Assembly (NCBI RefSeq): GCF_030269665.1
Contig: NZ_BSTS01000001.1
Location: forward strand, 372,001 to 436,000
DNA length: 64,000 nucleotides
Reading direction: 5' to 3'
Origin: Actinomycetospora sp. NBRC 106375
GTDB taxonomy: Bacteria > Actinomycetota > Actinomycetes > Mycobacteriales > Pseudonocardiaceae
Shown: positions 24,270 to 35,748 of the stretch, piece after piece
How the letters are laid out: every line of letters begins with the position of its first letter
Position numbering within the stretch: the first letter of the stretch is position 1
Position numbers and translations under genes: made by a program
The notes under the pieces: generated by a model
What the model saw: only the letters and a program-made list of their open reading frames with translations
What the model was told of the DNA's origin: nothing
The model's database searches: none

Positions 24270-25262
24270 GTGTTCGCGCTGGATCACCTCCGCGCCCTCG
24301 ACGCGCTCGCCGCGCAGGGCTCGGTGGCCGGCGCGGCCACGTCGCTGCACCTCACGCCGTCCGCGGTGTCCCAGCAGCTGGCCAAGCTCGAGCGCGAGGC
24401 CGGGGCGCCGCTCACCGAGCCGGCCGGGCGCGGCCTGCGCCTGACCCCGGCCGGGCGGATGCTCGCCGAGCACGCGACGCAGATCCTCGCCCGTGTCGCG
24501 GCGGCGCGGCTCGACCTCGACCGTCTGCGCGACGAGGTGGTGGGCGAGCTGCGGATCGGCGCGATCCCGACCTCCGTGCACGCGCTCGCGCCCACCACCT
24601 TGGCCCGCCTGCGCACCGCGCACCCCGACCTGCGGGTCGCGCTCGCCGACGGGGAGGCCGAGGAGACCCTCCCGGCGGTCCTCGCCGGCGACCTGGACCT
24701 CGCGGTGGTCGAGAACTGGGAGGGCTCCCCCGCCCCCATCCCGCCCGGCACCTCACGGGCGCGGCTCTGCGAGGACGTCATCGACCTCCTGCTGCCCGCG
24801 CACCACCGCCTCGCCGGTCCCGGTCCGGTCGACCTCGCCGCGGTGGACGACCTCGACTGGGTCGCCGACGGCAGGGAGAACCGCGCGGGGGTGTGGCTCG
24901 TGCAGACGCTGCGCGGCCTCGGCCTCGAACCGCGCGTGACGTGCCAGGTGCGGGGCTTCGGGATGCACGTCGAGCTCGTCGCGGGGGTGGGGGTCGCGGC
25001 GCTGGTCCCGCGCCTGGCCCGTCCCCCGCTGCCGCCGGGCGTGGTCGCCGCGACGACCGTCCCGGCGATGCGCCGCAGCATCGACGCCGTGTGGCGCACC
25101 GACCGCGGGACGGCGGCGGTACGTGCCGCGGTCGAGGAGTTCACCGCCGTCGCCGCCGAGCGCGACGCGGGTCCGGCGGCTCCGGCGGGTCCGGCGGGTC
25201 CGGCGGGTCCGGCGGCTCAGGCCTCGGGCGCGAGCAGCTGGTCGGCGTCGAAGCAGGTGTGA
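24270..25262 (+). CDS. LysR-family transcriptional regulator
   Basis: A 330-residue regulator. The N-terminal winged helix is clear: [39 protein letters not shown], here split by eye into turn and recognition helix, with [16 protein letters not shown] in the wing. A periplasmic-binding-like effector domain follows. From about residue 296 the C-terminus degenerates into a run of Pro-Ala-Gly units coded by a 9-base tandem repeat. The frame then runs 46 bases into the convergent hisI gene before stopping. The natural C-terminus was probably shorter. It most likely controls the divergent EamA exporter and itself. Confidence 0.88.
25173..25216. repeat. GGTCCGGCG tandem repeat at the LysR 3' end
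   Basis: Three perfect head-to-tail copies of GGTCCGGCG with degenerate flanking copies (GGTCCGGCGGCTCCGGCG). It encodes a Pro-Ala-Gly run in the regulator and stops exactly at the convergent hisI stop codon. Confidence 0.75.
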
Positions 25263-25570
25263 TCGCCGGTGTGGCAGGCCGCGCCGGACTGGTCGACGAG
25301 CACCAGCACGGTGTCGCCGTCACAGTCGAGGCGCACCTCGACGACCTTCTGGACGTGTCCGGAGGTCGCGCCCTTGACCCAGAGCTCGTCGCGCGAGCGG
25401 GACCAGTAGGTGCCCTCGCGGGTGGCGAGCGTGCGGGCCAGGGCCTCGTCGTTCATCCACGCGACCATGAGGACCTCGCGGGTGTCGTACTGCTGCGCCA
25501 CCGCGCACACCAGGCCGTCGGGGGTGCGCTTGAGCCGCGACGCCACCGCCGCGTCGAGCGTGAAGGTCAT
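25217..25570 (-). CDS. hisI: Phosphoribosyl-AMP cyclohydrolase
   Basis: A 117-residue zinc enzyme for the third step of histidine synthesis; it lacks the HisE pyrophosphohydrolase domain. Conserved: [30 protein letters not shown], the Zn and Mg ligands in [16 protein letters not shown], and [10 protein letters not shown]. The ATG overlaps the hisF stop as ATGA. The 3' end overlaps the convergent LysR gene by 46 bases. Confidence 0.96.
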
Positions 25571-26340
25571 CGGACCTCCACCCCGTCGGCCCGCAGCGCG
25601 TCCTTGACCTCACCGATCCGCATGATCCCGAAGTGGAACACGCTCGCCGCGAGCACCGCGTCCGCCCCCGCCGCCACGGCCGGGGGGAAGTGGTCGACCT
25701 CGCCCGCGCCGCCGCTGGCGATCACCGGGACGTCGACCAGCGCGCGCACCTTCGTGATCATCTCGAGGTCGAAGCCGGCCTTGGTGCCGTCGGCGTCCAT
25801 GGAGTTCAGCAGGATCTCGCCGACGCCCAGCTCCTGGCCGCGCTGGGCCCACTCGAGCGCGTCGATGCCGGTGCCGCGGCGCCCGCCGTGGGTGGTGACC
25901 TCGAACCCGGACGGCGTCGGCTGTCCGTCGGCGGGCACGCGCCGGGCGTCGACCGACAGGACGATGCACTGCGACCCGTACCGCCGGCTGGCCTCGCCGA
26001 GGAACTCCGGGCGGGCGATCGCGGCGGTGTTGATGCCGACCTTGTCCGCACCCGCGCGCAGCAGCCGGTCGATGTCGTCGTTGGTGCGCACGCCGCCGCC
26101 GACCGTCAGCGGGATGAACACCTGCTCGGCGGTGCGGCGCACGACGTCGTAGGTGGTCTCGCGCTCGCCGGACGAGGCGCTGACGTCGAGGAACGTCAGC
26201 TCGTCGGCGCCCTCGGCGTCGTAGAGCCGCGCCATCTCGACGGGGTCGCCGGCGTCGCGCAGGTCGACGAAGTTGACGCCCTTGACCACCCTGCCGGCGT
26301 CGACGTCCAGACAGGGGATCACGCGCACCGCGACACCCAT
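25567..26340 (-). CDS. hisF: Imidazole glycerol phosphate synthase, cyclase subunit
   Basis: A 257-residue TIM barrel. With HisH it makes imidazole glycerol phosphate and AICAR from PRFAR and glutamine-derived ammonia. The catalytic Asp lies in [18 protein letters not shown], and [14 protein letters not shown] carries the second. [11 protein letters not shown] and [13 protein letters not shown] bind the phosphates. The transcript may be leaderless: a TAGGCT box ends seven bases before the ATG. hisF and hisI may therefore form their own unit beyond the palindromic repeat that follows hisA. Confidence 0.97.
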
Positions 26341-26347
26341 ACCGATC

Positions 26348-26353
26348 AGCCTA
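26348..26353 (-). promoter_or_regulatory. -10 box of a probable leaderless hisF-hisI transcript
   Basis: TAGGCT on the minus strand, then seven bases, then the hisF ATG. It lies just past the palindromic repeat at the hisA stop, which fits a new transcription unit after a terminator. Confidence 0.5.
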
Positions 26354-26388
26354 ACCGCGCGAGGGAGGCGCGAAGACCGCCGGCCTCC

Positions 26389-26428
26389 GTGAGCAGTCGG
26401 CCCCCCTATCGGGGCGCCAACTGCTCAC
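26389..26428. repeat. Dispersed palindromic repeat, copy 1 (hisA 3' end)
   Basis: Right arm GGGGCGCCAACTGCTCAC at 26411-26428 and left arm GTGAGCAGTCGGCCCCCC at 26389-26406, with 16 of 18 positions able to pair. The right arm is identical to that of the copy at 62182-62222. The hisA TGA stop (26425-26427) lies inside the right arm. The hairpin can terminate hisA transcription. Confidence 0.8.
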
Positions 26429-27159
26429 GTACGGGTCGCGGCGAGGGCGTCGGCGAGGGTGAAGTTGCCCGCGTAGAGGGCCTTGCCGACGATCGCGCCC
26501 TCGACGCCCCGCGGCGCCAGGTCGGCGAGCACCCGCAGGTCGTCGAGCGACGAGACCCCGCCCGAGGCCACCACGGGCCGGTCGGTGCGGGCGCAGACGG
26601 CCTCGAGGAGCTCGGTGTTCGGGCCGGTCAGCGTCCCGTCACGGCCGACGTCGGTGACGACGTAGCGCGCGCAGCCCTCGGCGTCGAGACGGGCGAGCAC
26701 GCTCCAGAGGTCGCCGCCGTCGGACACCCATCCGCGCGCGGCGAGACGGTGGCGCCCCTCGGAGATCTTCACGTCGAGCCCGACGGCCACCCGGTCGCCG
26801 AACTCGGCGATCGCCGACGCGCACCACGCCGGGTCCTCGAGCGCGGCGGTGCCGATGTTCACCCGCGCGCAGCCGGTGTCGAGCGCCCGGCGCAGGGAGG
26901 CGTCGTCGCGGATGCCGCCGGACAGCTCGACCTTGATGTCGATCTTCTCGACGACGGACGCGAGCAGCGGCGCGTTGGAACCCCGGCCGAACGCCGCGTC
27001 GAGGTCGACCAGGTGCAGCCACTCCGCGCCGCCCGCGGCCCAGGTCTCGGCGGCCTCGAGGGGATCGCCGTAGCCGGTCTCGCTGCCGGCACGGCCCTGG
27101 ACGAGACGGACCGCCTGGCCGTCCACGACGTCCACGGCGGGGAGCAGGTCGATGGTCAC
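26425..27159 (-). CDS. hisA: Phosphoribosyl isomerase A (HisA/PriA)
   Basis: A 244-residue TIM barrel. In actinobacteria this enzyme isomerises both ProFAR in histidine synthesis and PRA in tryptophan synthesis (PriA). That fits the absence of trpF beside the trp genes here. Seen: [63 protein letters not shown], and [13 protein letters not shown]. The GTG start overlaps the stop of an ECF sigma gene as GTGA, so its translation is coupled to a stress regulator. Its own stop lies in a palindromic repeat. Confidence 0.97.
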
Positions 27160-28436
27160 GGGGCGCGATCGTAGCCAGCGGGCTCCCGCGCCCCGATCAG
27201 GTCCGCCCGCCGCCGGGCGAGCAGCTCCCGCTCGGCGACGGTGCGCACCAGCTCGAGGGCGCGGTCCAGCTCGCCGACGGCCTCGTCGACGCGGCCGAGC
27301 GTGACGAGCATGTCGGCGCGGACGGCCGGGAGCAGGTGGTAGCCGGCCATCACCGGTTCCGCGCGCAGCGGCTCGAGGACCGCGAGCCCGGCCTCGGGCC
27401 CCTCGGCGCGCGACACCGCCACCGCACGGTTCAGCTCGATCACCGGCGACGGGGTCAGCGCGGCGAGCTCGGCGTAGGTCGCGGCGATCGCCGCCCAGTC
27501 GGTGTCGGCGGTGGACCGCGCCCGGGCGTGGCAGGCGGCGATGGCGGCCTGCAGCGTGTACCGCCCGCGGGGCCCGCCCTGCTCGGCCCGCGCGAGCGCG
27601 GCGAGCCCGCGCTGCAGCAGGACGCGGTCCCACAGGGCCCGGTCCTGGTCGCCGAGCAGCACGGGCTCCCCCGACGGCCCGATCCGCGCCCGCAGCCGCG
27701 AGCCCTGCAGCTCCATGAGGGCGACGAGGCCGTGCACCTCGGGCTCGTCGGGGCAGAGCGCGGCGAGGACGCGCCCGAGCCGCATCGCCTCGACACACAG
27801 CGTCGGGCGGGTCCAGTCGACGCCGGTGGTGGCCGCGTAGCCCTCGTTGAACACGAGGTAGACCACCTCGAGGACCGCGCCGACCCGCGCGGTGAGCTCC
27901 TCGCCGACCGGGACGACCAGCGCCTCGGGGCCGACACCGGCCAGGCGCTTCTTCGCGCGGGAGATCCGCTGGCCGATCGTCGGCGACGGCACGAGGAACG
28001 CGTGGGCGATCTCGTCGGTGGTCAGTCCGCCGAACAGCCGCAGGGTCAGCGCGACCCGGGACTCGCGGGCGACCGCCGGGTGGCACGTGGCGAACAGCAG
28101 CGCGAGGACGTCGTCGCCCACTACCGCCGCCCCGTCGCCGACCGTCTCGTCGGCCGCCGGAGCCACCCTCGCGTCGTCGAGCATCTCCGTCTTGCGCGCG
28201 AGGTTCTGCTCCCGGCGGATGGCGTCGATCGCCCGGCGCCGCGCCGTCGCCGACAGCCACGCCGCCGGGTTGTCCGGCACGCCCTCGCGGGGCCACTGCT
28301 CCATCGCCGCGACGAGCGCGTCGTGGGCGAGCTCCTCGGCCCGGCCCACGTCCCGCACCACGCGCGCGACGCCGGCCACGATCCGGGCGGACTCCATCCG
28401 CCAGACCGTCTCGAGGACGGCGTAGGGATCGGTCAC
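27156..28436 (-). CDS. ECF42-group RNA polymerase sigma factor with TPR-like C-terminal extension
   Basis: A 426-residue protein. Region 2 ([20 protein letters not shown] and [21 protein letters not shown]) and region 4 ([20 protein letters not shown], then [13 protein letters not shown]) make up the sigma part. About 230 residues follow with tetratricopeptide-like helices ([41 protein letters not shown]). This architecture plus the two DGPF-motif genes directly upstream defines group ECF42, which has no anti-sigma factor and is thought to be regulated through its extension. The GTG start overlaps the DGPF gene stop and its own stop overlaps the hisA start. Confidence 0.93.
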
Positions 28437-28855
28437 CGCTGCTGGTGCGCGGCTCGCGCGCGCAGCTCCTCCTCGGCCTCGAGCACCTCGGGCGGGGCGA
28501 TGCCCTCGAAGTCCTCGGCCTCGGTCACGCGGCGCACCTCGATGCGCTCCCCGTCGCGGAACGGCGCCCGGCGCGCCCACGAGACGGCGTCGGCGAGGGA
28601 GTCGACCTGGAGGATCCAGAACCCGCCGACGAGCTCCTTGGCCTCGGCGAACGGGCCGTCGGTGACGGTCGGCTCCTCGCCGTCGAACGCGACGAGTGCA
28701 CCCTTGGCGCTGGGCAGCAGGCCCTCGCCGGCGAGCAGCACCTCGGCGTCGACCATCGCGGTGTTGAACGTCGCCATCTCCTCGAAGAGGGCGGGGTCGG
28801 GCGGCGTGGCCATCTGGGCGGCCTCGTCGTACTTGAGCAGCAGCATGAAGCGCAC
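28433..28855 (-). CDS. DGPF/YCII-related protein 1
   Basis: A 140-residue YCII-fold protein with the name-giving [20 protein letters not shown] motif and an N-terminal [13 protein letters not shown] strand. DGPF proteins are the constant partners of ECF42 sigma factors, and their activity is unknown. GTG start with a GAGGAG ribosome site; the stop overlaps the sigma start. It is a paralogue of the next gene upstream, sharing length, motif and C-terminal [13 protein letters not shown]. Confidence 0.92.
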
Positions 28856-28886
28856 GGGGATCTCCTCGGGAACGACGGGTGACGGG

Positions 28887-29321
28887 TCAGGCCTGGTCGC
28901 GCTCGGCGATCCGCCGGCGCAGGGTGGCCTCGGCGTCGAGCACCTCGGCCGCGGCGACGTCCTCGAACTCGCTCATCTCGGCGATGCGGCGCACCGAGAG
29001 GCGCACGCCCGGGCCGATCGGGCAGCGCTTCGCCCACTGCACGGCCTCCTCGCGGGAGCCGACCTCGAGGATCCAGAACCCGGCGACGAGCTCCTTGGCC
29101 TCGGCGAACGGGCCGTCGGTGACGCTCGCGGTCTCGCCGTCGTGGGTGACGGCGAAGCCCTCGGCACTCGGGGCGAGACCCTCGACCGCCAGCAGCACGC
29201 CGGCCTCCACGAGGTCGTGGTTGTACCGGCCCATGGCCTCGAAGGTGTCCTCCGGGCGCGGCGCGTCGGCCTCGCCGACGGCCATCGACTCCGGGGCCTC
29301 CATGATCAGCATGTAGCGCAC
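28887..29321 (-). CDS. DGPF/YCII-related protein 2
   Basis: A 144-residue paralogue of the neighbouring DGPF protein: RYMLIMEAPESMAVGE at the start, [20 protein letters not shown] in the middle, and a final helix with AEVLDAEATLRRRI. It is the first gene of the ECF42 module. GTG start, GAGGAG ribosome site seven bases before it, and an ECF42-like promoter about 60 bases upstream. The function of the family is not known. Confidence 0.92.
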   Translation of the reverse strand: MRYMLIMEAPESMAVGEADAPRPEDTFEAMGRYNHDLVEAGVLLAVEGLAPSAEGFAVTHDGETASVTDGPFAEAKELVAGFWILEVGSREEAVQWAKRCPIGPGVRLSVRRIAEMSEFEDVAAAEVLDAEATLRRRIAERDQA

Positions 29322-29377
29322 GGCGCTGCTCCTCGCGGGGTCGTCGGCGAGGCCCTCCCCCGCCGCTCACCCCGTGC

Positions 29378-29404
29378 GTCGAACGAGTCGGGCGTTCTTC
29401 GACA
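29378..29404 (-). promoter_or_regulatory. ECF42-type promoter upstream of the DGPF-sigma module
   Basis: On the minus strand TGTCGA (29404-29399), a 17-base spacer, then CGAC (29381-29378). As I recall, the motif described for ECF42 promoters is TGTCGA at -35 and CGWC at -10. A start near 29371 would leave about 50 bases of leader before the first DGPF gene. This supports positive autoregulation of the module. Confidence 0.65.
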
Positions 29405-29434
29405 CCGGTCGGGGACGACCTCTCCCCGCGATTT

Positions 29435-30109
29435 CTACCGCAGCGCGTCGAGCCAGTTCGACAGCAGTGCCGCGCCCGCTTCGCCCGATTTCTCCGGGTG
29501 GAACTGGGTGGCCGACAACGGCCCGTTCTCGACGGCGGCGACGAAGTCCTCGCCGTGGTGGGCCCACGTGACCGAGGCCGGTCGGAACCGCTCGGAGACC
29601 TGCTGCTCCCAGCGCCGCACCGCGAACGAGTGAACGAAGTAGAACCGCGTGCCGGGGTCCATCCCGGCGAACAGGACGCTGTCGGCGGGGGCGCTGACCG
29701 TGTTCCACCCCATGTGGGGCAGCACGTCGGCGTGCAGCTTCTCGACGGTGCCGGGCCACTGCCCCGCGCCCGCGGCCTCCTCGCCGAACTCGACCCCGCG
29801 CTCGAAGAGCACCTGCATGCCCACGCAGATGCCCAGCACCGGACGGCCTCCGGCCAGGCGTTGGTCGATCAGCCGCTCGCCGTGCACCGAGCGCAGACCC
29901 GCCGCGCAGGCGGCGAACGCCCCCACGCCGGGGACGACGAGCCCGTCGGCCTCGAGCGCGGCCCGGCCGTCGGCGGTGACCTCGACGTCGGCGCCGACGT
30001 GCTCGAGGGCGCGTTCGGCGGAGCGCAGGTTGCCCGAGCCGTAGTCGAGGACGACGACGCGCGGGGTCCGGGTACGGGGTGCGGGGGCCGTGGCCGACGG
30101 CGAGGTCAC
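29435..30109 (-). CDS. hisH: Imidazole glycerol phosphate synthase, glutaminase subunit
   Basis: A 224-residue class I glutamine amidotransferase. Triad: Cys in [14 protein letters not shown], and His and Glu in TQFHPEKSG. Oxyanion strand: [10 protein letters not shown]. It feeds ammonia to HisF. The GTG start at 30109 overlaps the methyltransferase stop as GTGA. The first 19 residues before [10 protein letters not shown] are an S/A/P/R-rich extension. In most actinobacteria hisH is followed directly by hisA; here 2.3 kb of ECF42 module separates them. Confidence 0.96.
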
Positions 30110-30762
30110 GACCGCCAGGCTACCGAGCGTCCCGGCCCCGGGACCTCCCGCGCCTCGAGCACCAGCAGCCGGCCGGGGCCGTCGGATGGCCGCGGCACGT
30201 CGTCGACCGGACGTGCGTAGCCGCCGGCGACGAGCCGGTCGACGGCGAGCTCGTAACCGAGCGCCCAGGTCTCGTCCGCCATTCCCGCGACGAGCACCCC
30301 GCCGGGCCGCAGCACCCGGAGGAAGCCGACGAGCGCGCGAGGACCGAGGTGTCCCGGCGCCAGTCCGCCGGCACACGTCACGGCGCCGAACTTCTCGCCC
30401 GCCCCCGGCACATCGTCGCGCAGGTCGGCGGGGCCGAGGTCGGTGTAGACGCGACGCCGGCGAGCCCGCCGCACCATCATCGGCGAGAGGTCGAGGCCGT
30501 CGACGGACCGGAACCCCCGCTCGGCGAGCGCCGCCCCCACGAGGCCGGTCCCGCAGGCCGCGTCGAGGACCTCGGTGCGGGGGTCGACGAGTGTCGCGAG
30601 GTGCGCGGCCACCGCCGCGGGCGCCGGGCTGCGCAGGTGGGCGGCGACGTCGGCGTCGTCGTAGGTCTCGGCCCAGGCGTCGTAGAGGGCCCGGAGGTCG
30701 TCGACGCTCGTCGCGGCGCCGACGAGCGCGAGCCGCTCCGCCACGTCCGTGGCGCCGTCCAC
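30106..30762 (-). CDS. Class I SAM-dependent methyltransferase
   Basis: A 218-residue Rossmann-fold methyltransferase: [15 protein letters not shown] at the N-terminus, SAM motif [30 protein letters not shown] for the ribose acid, and [15 protein letters not shown]. The substrate is unknown; the fold family includes small-molecule methyltransferases. The GTG at 30762 is preceded by GGGAGG at ideal spacing, which favours it over the upstream ATG. Its stop overlaps the hisH start, so it belongs to the his transcription unit. Confidence 0.85.
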
Positions 30763-30832
30763 TCTGCCTCCCGGTTCGGTCGTGCCCGACCGGAAGTGCC
30801 CGCTCCGTGCGCCCGCCGAACCGTGAGGTGGG

Positions 30833-30997
30833 TCAAGCAGGCAGCAGGCGCAGGACGGCACCGCCCACGGCCAGCAGGGCGAGCACGCCGAGGACGACGG
30901 CGGCGACGCGGTTGCGCGACCAGAAGCTGACGACGCCGCCGACGAGGAAACCGGCGAGCGCGAGGAGCCCGACGATCAGGAGGTCGGAGCCGCTCAT
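30833..30997 (-). CDS. Small two-helix membrane protein in the his operon
   Basis: A 54-residue protein with two hydrophobic helices, LLIVGLLALAGFLVGGVVSFW and AVVLGVLALLAVGGAVLRLL, joined by a basic turn (SRNRVA). It lies 34 bases after hisB and 70 before the methyltransferase. A small membrane protein at this position is familiar in Pseudonocardiales his operons, but I cannot name a family or function. Confidence 0.7.
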   Translation of the reverse strand: MSGSDLLIVGLLALAGFLVGGVVSFWSRNRVAAVVLGVLALLAVGGAVLRLLPA

Positions 30998-31031
30998 CGG
31001 ATGGTCCAGCTCCGCTGCGCTGCGTGTCCCG

Positions 31032-31637
31032 TCACGACTCCAGGACGCCCTTGGTGGACGCCGGGCCCTCCAGCCGCGGGTCGGGCTCGGTGGCGGCGCG
31101 CAGCGCGCGGGCCATCGCCTTGTACTCGGCCTCGGTGATGTGGTGCGGGTCGCGACCACCGGTGACCCGCACGTGCAGGGCGATGCCGGCGTGGAACGCG
31201 ATCGACTCGAACACGTGGCGGTTGAGCACGGTCGGGTAGTGGCCGCCGACGACGAAGCCGGCCATCGCGTCGGGCTCGCCGGTGTGCACGCAGTACGGCC
31301 GCCCGGAGACGTCGACGACGGCCTGGGCGAGCGCCTCGTCCATCGGGATCCAGGCGTCGCCGAAGCGGCGGATGCCCGACTTGTCACCGAGCGCCTGCTT
31401 GAGCGCCTGGCCGAACACGATCGCGACGTCCTCGACGGTGTGGTGCGCGTCGATCGCGACGTCGCCACTGGCCCGCACCACGAGGTCGAGCGCACCGTGC
31501 TTGCCCACCGCGTCGAGCATGTGGTCGAAGAACGGCACCCCGGTGGCGACCTCGGTGCGGCCCGTGCCGTCGAGGTCGATCTCGACGAGCACGCTCGACT
31601 CCTTGGTCACGCGCTCCACGCGTCCCGTCCGTCCCAC
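31032..31637 (-). CDS. hisB: Imidazoleglycerol-phosphate dehydratase
   Basis: A 201-residue single-function HisB, without the phosphatase domain of enteric HisB. Duplicated Mn-binding repeats are clear: [14 protein letters not shown] with [11 protein letters not shown], and [10 protein letters not shown]-like [14 protein letters not shown] with [17 protein letters not shown]. The GTG at 31637 gives the usual N-terminus ([16 protein letters not shown]). A TAACCT box ends seven bases before it, so the message is probably leaderless. This starts a new transcription unit separate from hisD-hisC. Confidence 0.96.
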
Positions 31638-31644
31638 GGGGTCC

Positions 31645-31650
31645 AGGTTA
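31645..31650 (-). promoter_or_regulatory. -10 box of a probable leaderless hisB transcript
   Basis: TAACCT on the minus strand, seven bases, then GTG. No ribosome site is present in this spacer. Confidence 0.55.
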
Positions 31651-31813
31651 CGCACCGCTCCGGCTCGCCACGGGAGCTGCCCGTTCGGCCGATCGCTCTT
31701 GCCCGCTCCGTCACTTAGCGTCGAAGACGTCCGCATCACGGGGGGACGGGATGCTCGGACGGGAGGGGTGACCGCGGCTCGCGGTCGCTCCGCGTGACTC
31801 GGGGGGAGCTCTC

Positions 31814-31990
31814 ATGGTGTGCCGGCGCTGCTTCCTGTCGTCCGGCCGCGACTTCGCCCCGTACCCCCTGGGCAAATGGGTCTACCGGCGCTGCCGCCGC
31901 TGCAACGGGACGGGACGGCACGTGCGGCCCATGCGGAGGGTCCTCGGCGGGCCACTGGAGGACGGCAGCGGGGTGTGGCAGGGCCCGTAG
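31814..31990 (+). CDS. 58-residue zinc-ribbon/DnaJ-knuckle-like peptide
   Basis: Too short for standard ORF cut-offs but well supported. The ATG follows GGGGGGAG with seven bases of spacing. The peptide has two CxxC pairs, MVCRRC at residues 3-6 and RRCRRCNGTGRH at about 33-36; the second has the C-x-x-C-x-G-T-G form of DnaJ-type zinc knuckles. Four cysteines fit one bound zinc. It ends in a short hydrophilic tail and stops four bases before the convergent reductase gene. A TAGCGT box at 31716-31721 and a 7-3-7 hairpin (GACCGCG at 31770) lie in the leader. Function unknown. Confidence 0.6.
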   Translation: MVCRRCFLSSGRDFAPYPLGKWVYRRCRRCNGTGRHVRPMRRVLGGPLEDGSGVWQGP

Positions 31991-31994
31991 CCGG

Positions 31995-32654
31995 TCAGCG
32001 CCGGACGACGCGGACGTGGACCGCGCCGCTCTCGCCGGGCGTGAACCCCTCGACGCGGTAGCCCGCCGGCAGCGCCGCGAGACCGTCGAAGAGACGCTCC
32101 CCCGCGCCGGCGAGGATCGGCGCGATCACGAGGCGCAGGTCGTCCACGAGACCCTCGGCGAGGAACGCCCGCACCGTGGCGACCCCGCCGCCGAGCCGGA
32201 CGTCGCGGCCGTCGGCGGCCTCCGTCGCCCGGGCCAGGACCTCCCGCGGCGAGCCGTCGACGAAGTGGAACGTCGTCCCGCCCGCCATCGGCAGGGACGG
32301 CCGCGGGTGGTGGGTCAGGACGAAGACGTCGTGGTGGTAGGGCGGGTCCTCGCCCCACCAGCCGCGCCAGCTCTCGTCGGGCCAGTCGCCCCGCACCGGG
32401 CCGAACATGTTCCGGCCCATGATCGTGGCGCCGACGTTCTCCTCGCCGGCCAGGAACGCGGCGTGGTCCGCCCCGCTCCCCTCGCCGTCCGGAGGGTCGA
32501 GCTCCGCTCCGCTTCGTCTCCGGGAGAAGCTCGGCATCATCCAGTCGTGCAGTCCCTCGACGCGGTCGCCGAAGGGTGCGTCGGCCCGCTGGTCGGTGCC
32601 CGTGCCGAACCCGTCGAGCGTGAGCGTGAAGGCGTGGACGCGGAGCCGGGCCAT
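31995..32654 (-). CDS. Dihydrofolate reductase/RibD C-terminal-family protein
   Basis: A 219-residue protein of the RibD_C/DHFR-like superfamily. It has FTLTLDGFGTGTDQR at the start, TIMGRNMFGPVRG for the cofactor-adjacent loop, VFVLTHHPRP, LGGGVATVRAFLAEGLVDDL (the NADPH-binding glycine stretch), and IAPILAGAGERLF. This yfjR/YwjB-like group is NADPH-dependent with unknown substrates; it is not the folA enzyme. ATG at 32654 with GAGGGGG upstream. It diverges from an HxlR regulator and is probably its target. Confidence 0.85.
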   Translation of the reverse strand: MARLRVHAFTLTLDGFGTGTDQRADAPFGDRVEGLHDWMMPSFSRRRSGAELDPPDGEGSGADHAAFLAGEENVGATIMGRNMFGPVRGDWPDESWRGWWGEDPPYHHDVFVLTHHPRPSLPMAGGTTFHFVDGSPREVLARATEAADGRDVRLGGGVATVRAFLAEGLVDDLRLVIAPILAGAGERLFDGLAALPAGYRVEGFTPGESGAVHVRVVRR

Positions 32655-32687
32655 GGTGCCCCCTCGAGCTGGTGATGGCATTTCACA

Positions 32688-32736
32688 ACTGGTTGGACCG
32701 GAGGATAGGGACATCCAGTGGTAAAGTGCAACCAGT
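32688..32736. promoter_or_regulatory. Inverted half-sites between reductase and HxlR genes
   Basis: ACTGGTTG at 32688-32695 and its complement CAACCAGT at 32729-32736, with centres 41 bases apart (about four helical turns). On the minus strand TTGCAC (32731-32726), 18 bases, TATCCT (32707-32702) form a plausible promoter for the reductase that overlaps the second half-site. This is the natural place for HxlR binding. Confidence 0.5.
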
Positions 32737-32753
32737 CGGTGAGGAGGCTCCGG

Positions 32754-33254
32754 ATGCGGCAGGACGGACGGTCGGGCTGCCCGATCAACCGGGCGGTCGA
32801 GGCCCTCGGCGACCACTGGACCCTGCTGGTCCTGCGCGACATCACCTTCGGCGGCCGGCGGCACTTCCGCGAGCTGCTGGCCGGGTCCGAGGAGGGGATC
32901 GCCTCGAACATCCTCGCCGACCGGCTCCACCGCCTCGTCGACGACGGGATGCTCACCCGGGACGACCCCGGCCGCGGGCGCCGCGCGACCTACAGCCTCA
33001 CCGAGGCGTCCATCCAGCTGATCCCGGTGTTCGTCGCCCTCGGATCGTGGGGCCTGCGCCACCGCGAGACCACCGACGAGCTCCGCGTGCGTGCCGAGCT
33101 GCTCGAGGAGGGCGGCCCCGCGATGTGGGCCGACTTCATGGCCGAGCTGCGGGTGACCCACCTCGGCGCCCCGGAGCCCGCGCACCCGCGCGAGCCCGTG
33201 GTCGAGCGCCTGCGCGCGGCACGCGAGGGCGCCCGGGAACCCGCGGCCGGCTGA
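32754..33254 (+). CDS. HxlR-family transcriptional regulator
   Basis: A 166-residue winged-helix regulator. After the CPINRAVEALGDHWTLLVLRD signature (the Cys near residue 8 is the family's frequent redox or aldehyde sensor position) come FGGRRHFRELL, GIASNILADRLHRLVDDGML and the wing DPGRGRRATYSLTE. The ATG at 32754 has GAGGAGG six bases upstream; a GTG 12 codons earlier is less likely. It faces away from a RibD-like reductase, the usual partner layout for HxlR proteins that sense aldehydes or oxidants. Confidence 0.92.
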   Translation: MRQDGRSGCPINRAVEALGDHWTLLVLRDITFGGRRHFRELLAGSEEGIASNILADRLHRLVDDGMLTRDDPGRGRRATYSLTEASIQLIPVFVALGSWGLRHRETTDELRVRAELLEEGGPAMWADFMAELRVTHLGAPEPAHPREPVVERLRAAREGAREPAAG

Positions 33255-33281
33255 CGGGTCCGCTCCCGACCTCGAGCGTGG

Positions 33282-35748
<2,467 letters not shown>

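Follow-up and report, generated by a model that had tools for sequence, protein, structure and literature searches.

A genus-specific ECF42-type sigma factor module in the histidine gene cluster, upstream of a hisA gene with a predicted leaderless promoter

Introduction

The closest described counterparts of the module analysed here are the ECF42 sigma factors Sven_0747 of Streptomyces venezuelae, ECF-10 of Pseudomonas putida and RpoE10 of Sinorhizobium meliloti (PMC8999054, PMC6180224). As far as the available parts of these papers describe them, they share with our locus sigma regions 2 and 4_2, a long C-terminal extension and one or more YCII genes directly upstream, as well as a promoter of the form TGTCGN-N17-CGWC (PMC8999054, PMC6180224). 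The promoters listed for S. meliloti RpoE10 in the accessible text have the same spacing by count and match by eye, and RpoE10 apparently lacks positive autoregulation (PMC6180224). A second point of reference is hisA of Corynebacterium glutamicum, for which the part of a review available to us reports an internal leaderless promoter found by RNA-seq (PMC3896937). The review cites unpublished data for this promoter and places its TANaNT -10 box 7 ± 1 nt upstream of the start. A TANNNT box at such spacing is a published signature of leaderless genes, according to the accessible part of the source (PMC3160421).

Here we describe an ECF42-type module that lies within the histidine cluster of the window (the whole 64,000-nucleotide stretch of Actinomycetospora DNA that was analysed). 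Judged by titles and abstract openings, no paper among the matches listed for ECF42 deals with his genes, and 'ecf sigma' was absent among the matches listed for the his-operon literature.

Results

Gene layout and class of the sigma factor

The initial annotation placed two DGPF genes and an ECF42 sigma gene between hisH and hisA on the same strand, and our gene calls and family matches agree with this arrangement (coordinates are those of the window).

29435..30112, minus strand: hisH, upstream neighbour (TIGR01855; the start is our choice)
28887..29321, minus strand: DGPF1, YCII-family protein, 144 aa (PF03795, 2.7e-16)
28433..28855, minus strand: DGPF2, YCII-family protein, 140 aa (PF03795, 5.1e-17)
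27156..28436, minus strand: ECF42-type sigma factor, 426 aa, with a long C-terminal extension (Pfam domains)
26425..27159, minus strand: hisA/priA, 244 aa, GTG start (TIGR01919, hisA-trpF)
25567..26340, minus strand: hisF, downstream neighbour (TIGR00735)
25217..25570, minus strand: hisI, downstream neighbour (PF01502, NF000768)

VTDGPF can be read in the translations of both DGPF1 and DGPF2. The DGPF2 stop overlaps the sigma start in the GTGA at 28433-28436, an overlap of 4 nt that recurs in 9 of 18 loci of the genus when the nearest start codon is used. The overlap of the sigma TGA with the hisA GTG, also noted in the initial annotation, is read directly as GTGA at 27156-27159. HisA scores 391.8 bits against the hisA-trpF model TIGR01919 (cut-off 306.45), and a trpF search (PF00697), positive in all 14 control genomes, found nothing in the window genome. 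The lack of a separate trpF match makes PriA a fair reading of HisA, so that the dual-use enzyme proposed in the annotation is probably what this gene encodes. Rfam returned no riboswitch or leader in the window at gathering threshold.

Several features flank the cluster. On one side, hisI and a LysR-family gene (plus strand, 24270-25262) converge and share 46 nt at their 3' ends (25217-25262), and beyond the latter lie an EamA transporter gene and, by eye, a trpE-like gene. On the other side, at 31995-33254, just upstream of the his genes, a gene that by eye resembles RibD_C/dihydrofolate reductase (minus strand) adjoins an HxlR-family regulator (plus strand); genes of the RibD_C family also feature in the candidate ECF42 regulon described below.

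Pfam places Sigma70_r2 at residues 19-77, Sigma70_r4_2 at 118-165 and DUF6596, which we take to be an ECF42 marker, at 184-284 of the sigma protein. About 260 residues follow sigma region 4, in keeping with the extension of some 200 residues expected of ECF42 factors, and the two YCII genes directly upstream correspond to the ECF42 neighbourhood, at least one DGPF match being present upstream in 71 of 80 named ECF42 relatives. TPR repeats gave no Pfam match in the extension at E 0.001, and NCBIfam returned generic sigma models only, all under their cut-offs. No anti-sigma gene lies beside the sigma gene, which is flanked directly by DGPF and his genes. Taken together, the protein looks like an ECF42-type sigma factor, a class assigned here by domains, YCII partners and promoter motif (see below).

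The module is confined to one genus among the loci read

The sigma gene (best match per genome) adjoins hisA in all 18 genomes of the window genus that were examined, which rules out chance adjacency. Sixteen of the 18 loci have the full order hisB-methyltransferase-hisH-DGPF1-DGPF2-sigma-hisA-hisF-hisI, and one more (L010) has the same order with only the methyltransferase match missing. The remaining locus (L005) begins inside the module; a second contig of the same genome (G014) ends with a promoter, hisH and a DGPF1 start (L178), which we have taken as the missing front of this module.

Outside the genus, hisA was located in 132 genomes of the family, and 60 loci from 45 genera were read. 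None of the 59 loci with hisH present had a sigma or DGPF match within the stretches read (inserts lying outside these stretches would escape the survey), and the sixtieth, L046, covered only 215 nt upstream of hisA. The interval between hisH and hisA exceeds 400 nt in 13 of these 59 loci, indicating that the junction often accepts extra sequence; one of the inserts is an HTH_31/DUF5753 gene, and two resemble LysR genes by eye. Among 397 genomes of the order, with four candidates per genome scored, at least 12 relatives of the sigma protein outside the genus were found at E 1e-145 (59-64% identity), and none of the 8 examined had a his gene within 1.5 kb. The 80 named ECF42 loci likewise gave no his match. 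Within the stretches read, the 59 family loci and these ECF42 relatives without a his match speak against an insertion linked to his genes and shared beyond the genus.

Among the loci read, the ECF42-type module is a genus-specific insertion in the his cluster. The insertion stated in the initial annotation is thus borne out (18 of 18 genus loci, 0 of 59 informative loci of other genera), and the comparison of hisH-hisA junctions that it had proposed, run here across the family, both confines the module to the genus and reveals a variable distance between sigma and hisA (-4 to 120 nt).

An ECF42-type promoter and its candidate regulon

Upstream of DGPF1 lies a motif of the ECF42 kind.

29378..29404, minus strand: ECF42-type promoter motif, TGTCGA (29399-29404), 17-nt spacer, CGAC (29378-29381)

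TGTCGA-N17-CGAC precedes DGPF1 in all 18 genomes of the genus (G014 counted through contig L178), and in the 17 loci measured it stands 52-56 nt from the start of the first gene. Of the 80 named ECF42 loci, 79 offered 100 nt or more ahead of the first gene; TGTCGN-N17-CGWC was found there in 48 of them, against 0-6 for each alternative spacing from 12 to 22 in the same loci.

With the strict motif, 24 sites were found in the 24 genomes searched, all of them in the genus (17 of 18 genomes; G003 escapes through one differing base). The six genomes from other genera had none, and the controls gave no hits. The hisA-linked module itself accounts for 16 of the 24. The other eight (L160, L162, L168, L169, L176, L182, L184 and L185) precede genes for alpha/beta hydrolases (three), DUF6069 proteins (three, one of them then trailed by a RibD_C-like gene) and RibD_C proteins (two), and in seven of the eight the distance to the gene start is 34-52 nt. 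Five of the target proteins were assigned with Pfam (one hydrolase, two DUF6069 and two RibD_C), the others by likeness. At L162, the site in the window genome (C26:11128-11154), the first reading frame differs from the hydrolase frame and the N-terminal part is seemingly lost or out of frame, which suggests that the hydrolase gene there may be truncated. The hydrolase, DUF6069 and RibD_C genes probably make up a small candidate ECF42 regulon.

Looser searches were less selective. A motif with a spacer of 15-18 matched the window 15 times, where shuffling predicts 4.6, and by itself says little; another form gave four sites in the window genome, including one (L161) for which no target could be recognised. 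The window genome has further ECF42-like genes, of which seven were examined, each with a DGPF match upstream. Two of these seven have the same motif with the 17-nt spacer upstream, and another of them, L188, has CCGTTCGAC with an 18-nt spacer. Since the motif also stands before paralogues, its assignment to one ECF42 paralogue is provisional.

hisA has a predicted promoter of its own

Directly upstream of hisA lies a putative start signal.

27168..27173, minus strand: TACGAT, predicted -10 box for leaderless transcription of hisA, with 8 nt between it and the GTG

The first T of this TANNNT is 14 nt upstream of the hisA start. A TANNNT with its first T 11-15 nt before hisA is present in 73 of 78 loci (15 of 18 in the genus and 58 of 60 in the rest of the family), and no further TANNNT occurs within 45 nt upstream of hisA in any of the 78. 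The exceptions in the genus (L004, L008 and L010) carry CANNNT or GANNNT at the -10 place, and the two in the family (L052 and L062) are without TANNNT. A scan of 25000-35000 for two-hexamer sigma-70 promoters found none, at hisA or elsewhere, and we accordingly claim no -35 box for hisA. The arrangement is that expected of leaderless genes, with TANNNT some 12 nt upstream of the start codon, suggesting that hisA is probably driven by its own leaderless promoter. As the -10 box is present with and without the module, it most simply predates the insertion.

Possible read-through from the module into hisA

Transcription from the module may read through into hisA, and this could have a regulatory role: an active ECF42 promoter would be read through the module into hisA-hisF-hisI, adding a stress boost to the constitutive hisA promoter. 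The genes lie on the same strand at short spacing, the gap between sigma and hisA is below 50 nt in 14 of 18 genomes, the order is kept across the genus, and a scan of 25000-35000 found no terminator-like site. However, strong stem-loops, placed mainly between the end of the sigma gene and the hisA -10 box, are predicted in four of the 18 (fold z of -6.8 in L004, -3.9 in L008, -4.3 in L010 and -4.6 in L012, for regions that include some sigma-coding sequence). These four loci have the longest sigma-hisA gaps in the genus (at least 55 nt each), and their stem-loops, which show no obvious T run, might insulate hisA. Judged by reading frames, moreover, none of the eight non-module strict sites visibly leads a his or trp gene, and hisA retains its own -10 box. 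We regard such tuning of hisA as unlikely.

Low fold z is also seen in loci with a short gap or none (-4.0 in L001, -3.8 in L002 and -2.4 in L018, the window's locus), where the structures lie within or across coding sequence; the window species has no strong hairpin between sigma and hisA. Separately, three of the four long-gap hairpin genomes also have a weaker hisA -10 box.

A further version of this idea, which we consider quite improbable, is that the module became fixed across the genus because stress read-through raises hisA/priA, hisF and hisI, and with them histidine and, through PriA, tryptophan synthesis. It would add that sigma translation and hisA transcription start may interfere in the window species, where the sigma frame crosses the hisA promoter.

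Possible read-through into the module from hisH

The leader of the module contains a predicted structure.

29345..29365, minus strand: predicted leader stem-loop, downstream of the ECF42 promoter and ahead of the DGPF1 start (single-sequence fold)

Single-sequence folding predicts a GC-rich hairpin in 18 of 18 DGPF1 leaders of the genus, and one pair of the stem is G-C in ten leaders, C-G in seven and unpaired in one; the consensus fold is weak (-4.7, a value computed without a shuffle control). Such a stem-loop may keep transcription from hisH out of the module, or it may add to the stability of the mRNA. This bears on a dependence in the opposite direction, with transcription from the upstream his genes giving sigma its basal supply and the module being a guest of the his operon. 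The 96-136 nt between hisH and DGPF1 in the 17 loci that have both, on the same strand, and the empty terminator scan are in its favour, but the predicted hairpin, present in every leader, could stop or weaken the incoming transcription, and we find such a dependence improbable.

The sigma-hisA overlap is derived and looks like a by-product

The initial annotation had read the GTGA overlap as making translation of hisA dependent on the sigma cistron. Within the genus this overlap is found in one of 18 genomes, in the window species only; in the other 17 the gap is 11-120 nt, and 25 nt in six of them. The sigma proteins of close relatives mostly end within about 10 residues of ERELLERR (that of L009 is longer). 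The last 10 residues of the window protein lie past the relatives' stop, and the Tyr-Asp found there is the translated TACGAT of the hisA -10 box. Alignment of the junctions shows the relatives' TGA replaced in the window species, with one base gained in between.

All 78 hisA genes read begin with GTGA, and an upstream frame whose stop is lost will therefore terminate at that TGA if it is in the right register. Unrelated upstream genes have the identical overlap in four of 60 relatives (L026, L049, L057 and L066), which amounts to about three independent cases, as L057 and L066 come from one genus. Open frames of at least 90 codons run into the GTGA in 13 of the 18 loci of the genus and in 17 of the 60 from the rest of the family; they were counted as genes only if their codon GC was clearly coding-like (third position highest, second lowest, strong contrast), as was the case for the window's locus (L018) and for the four above, all four of the latter being also picked as genes in separate gene calling. 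One more frame (L023, 93 codons) fitted the pattern weakly, had no gene called and was dropped.

The overlap looks like a derived by-product of position and not a control device; coupled pairs are expected to keep their overlap or tight spacing in relatives, and sigma and hisA do not. That ribosomes finishing sigma reinitiate on hisA is very unlikely: although a 4-nt overlap without a terminator is also the usual form of translational coupling, which might thus operate in the window species alone, and by eye no obvious Shine-Dalgarno sequence stands right before hisA, the -10 box at leaderless spacing, found family-wide with the module or without it, accounts for the missing Shine-Dalgarno, the overlap arose through loss of the sigma stop in a single species, and unrelated genes have arrived at the same GTGA, so that the proposed dependence of hisA on sigma translation is not supported.

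Discussion

The above results are best explained by an inserted, autoregulated ECF42-type cassette followed by an independent, leaderless hisA, with the overlap as a by-product, and we hold this reading as a whole with good confidence. The DGPF1-DGPF2-sigma cassette would have entered the hisH-hisA junction in the ancestor of the genus and been kept since. Its motif suggests that transcription begins from a dedicated promoter of the ECF42 type (29378-29404), and that its sigma factor probably controls hydrolase, DUF6069 membrane and RibD_C-type genes elsewhere. The conserved spacing of the box at 27168-27173 suggests that a housekeeping -10 element starts hisA independently, the 5' end of the hisA mRNA being at the GTG or a few bases off. 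We infer that the junction tolerated the insertion because hisA already owned a promoter. In the window species sigma would then have lost its own stop, and its frame would have run on to the next one, the TGA within the first bases of hisA. Some transcription may also pass from the module into hisA, although hisA expression would not depend on it, and the gene order could have been kept across the genus through benefit rather than inertia.

This reading suggests that a regulator cassette can settle in a core biosynthetic cluster, apparently without harm, where the downstream gene owns a leaderless promoter. It also cautions against reading 4-base GTGA overlaps in high-GC actinobacteria as coupling, and it offers a compact and testable candidate ECF42 regulon.

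The module differs from the known ECF42 systems by its placement between hisH and hisA. Whereas S. meliloti RpoE10 apparently leaves its own operon unactivated, as far as the available text describes it (PMC6180224), here the motif stands before the first gene of the module. The closest parallel for its surroundings is C. glutamicum: in both, on the part of the review available to us (PMC3896937), hisA is leaderless inside the his operon, the promoter being mapped by RNA-seq in C. glutamicum and predicted in the window. The C. glutamicum operon, however, is hisHA-impA-hisFI, whereas in the window an ECF42-type module stands between hisH and hisA.
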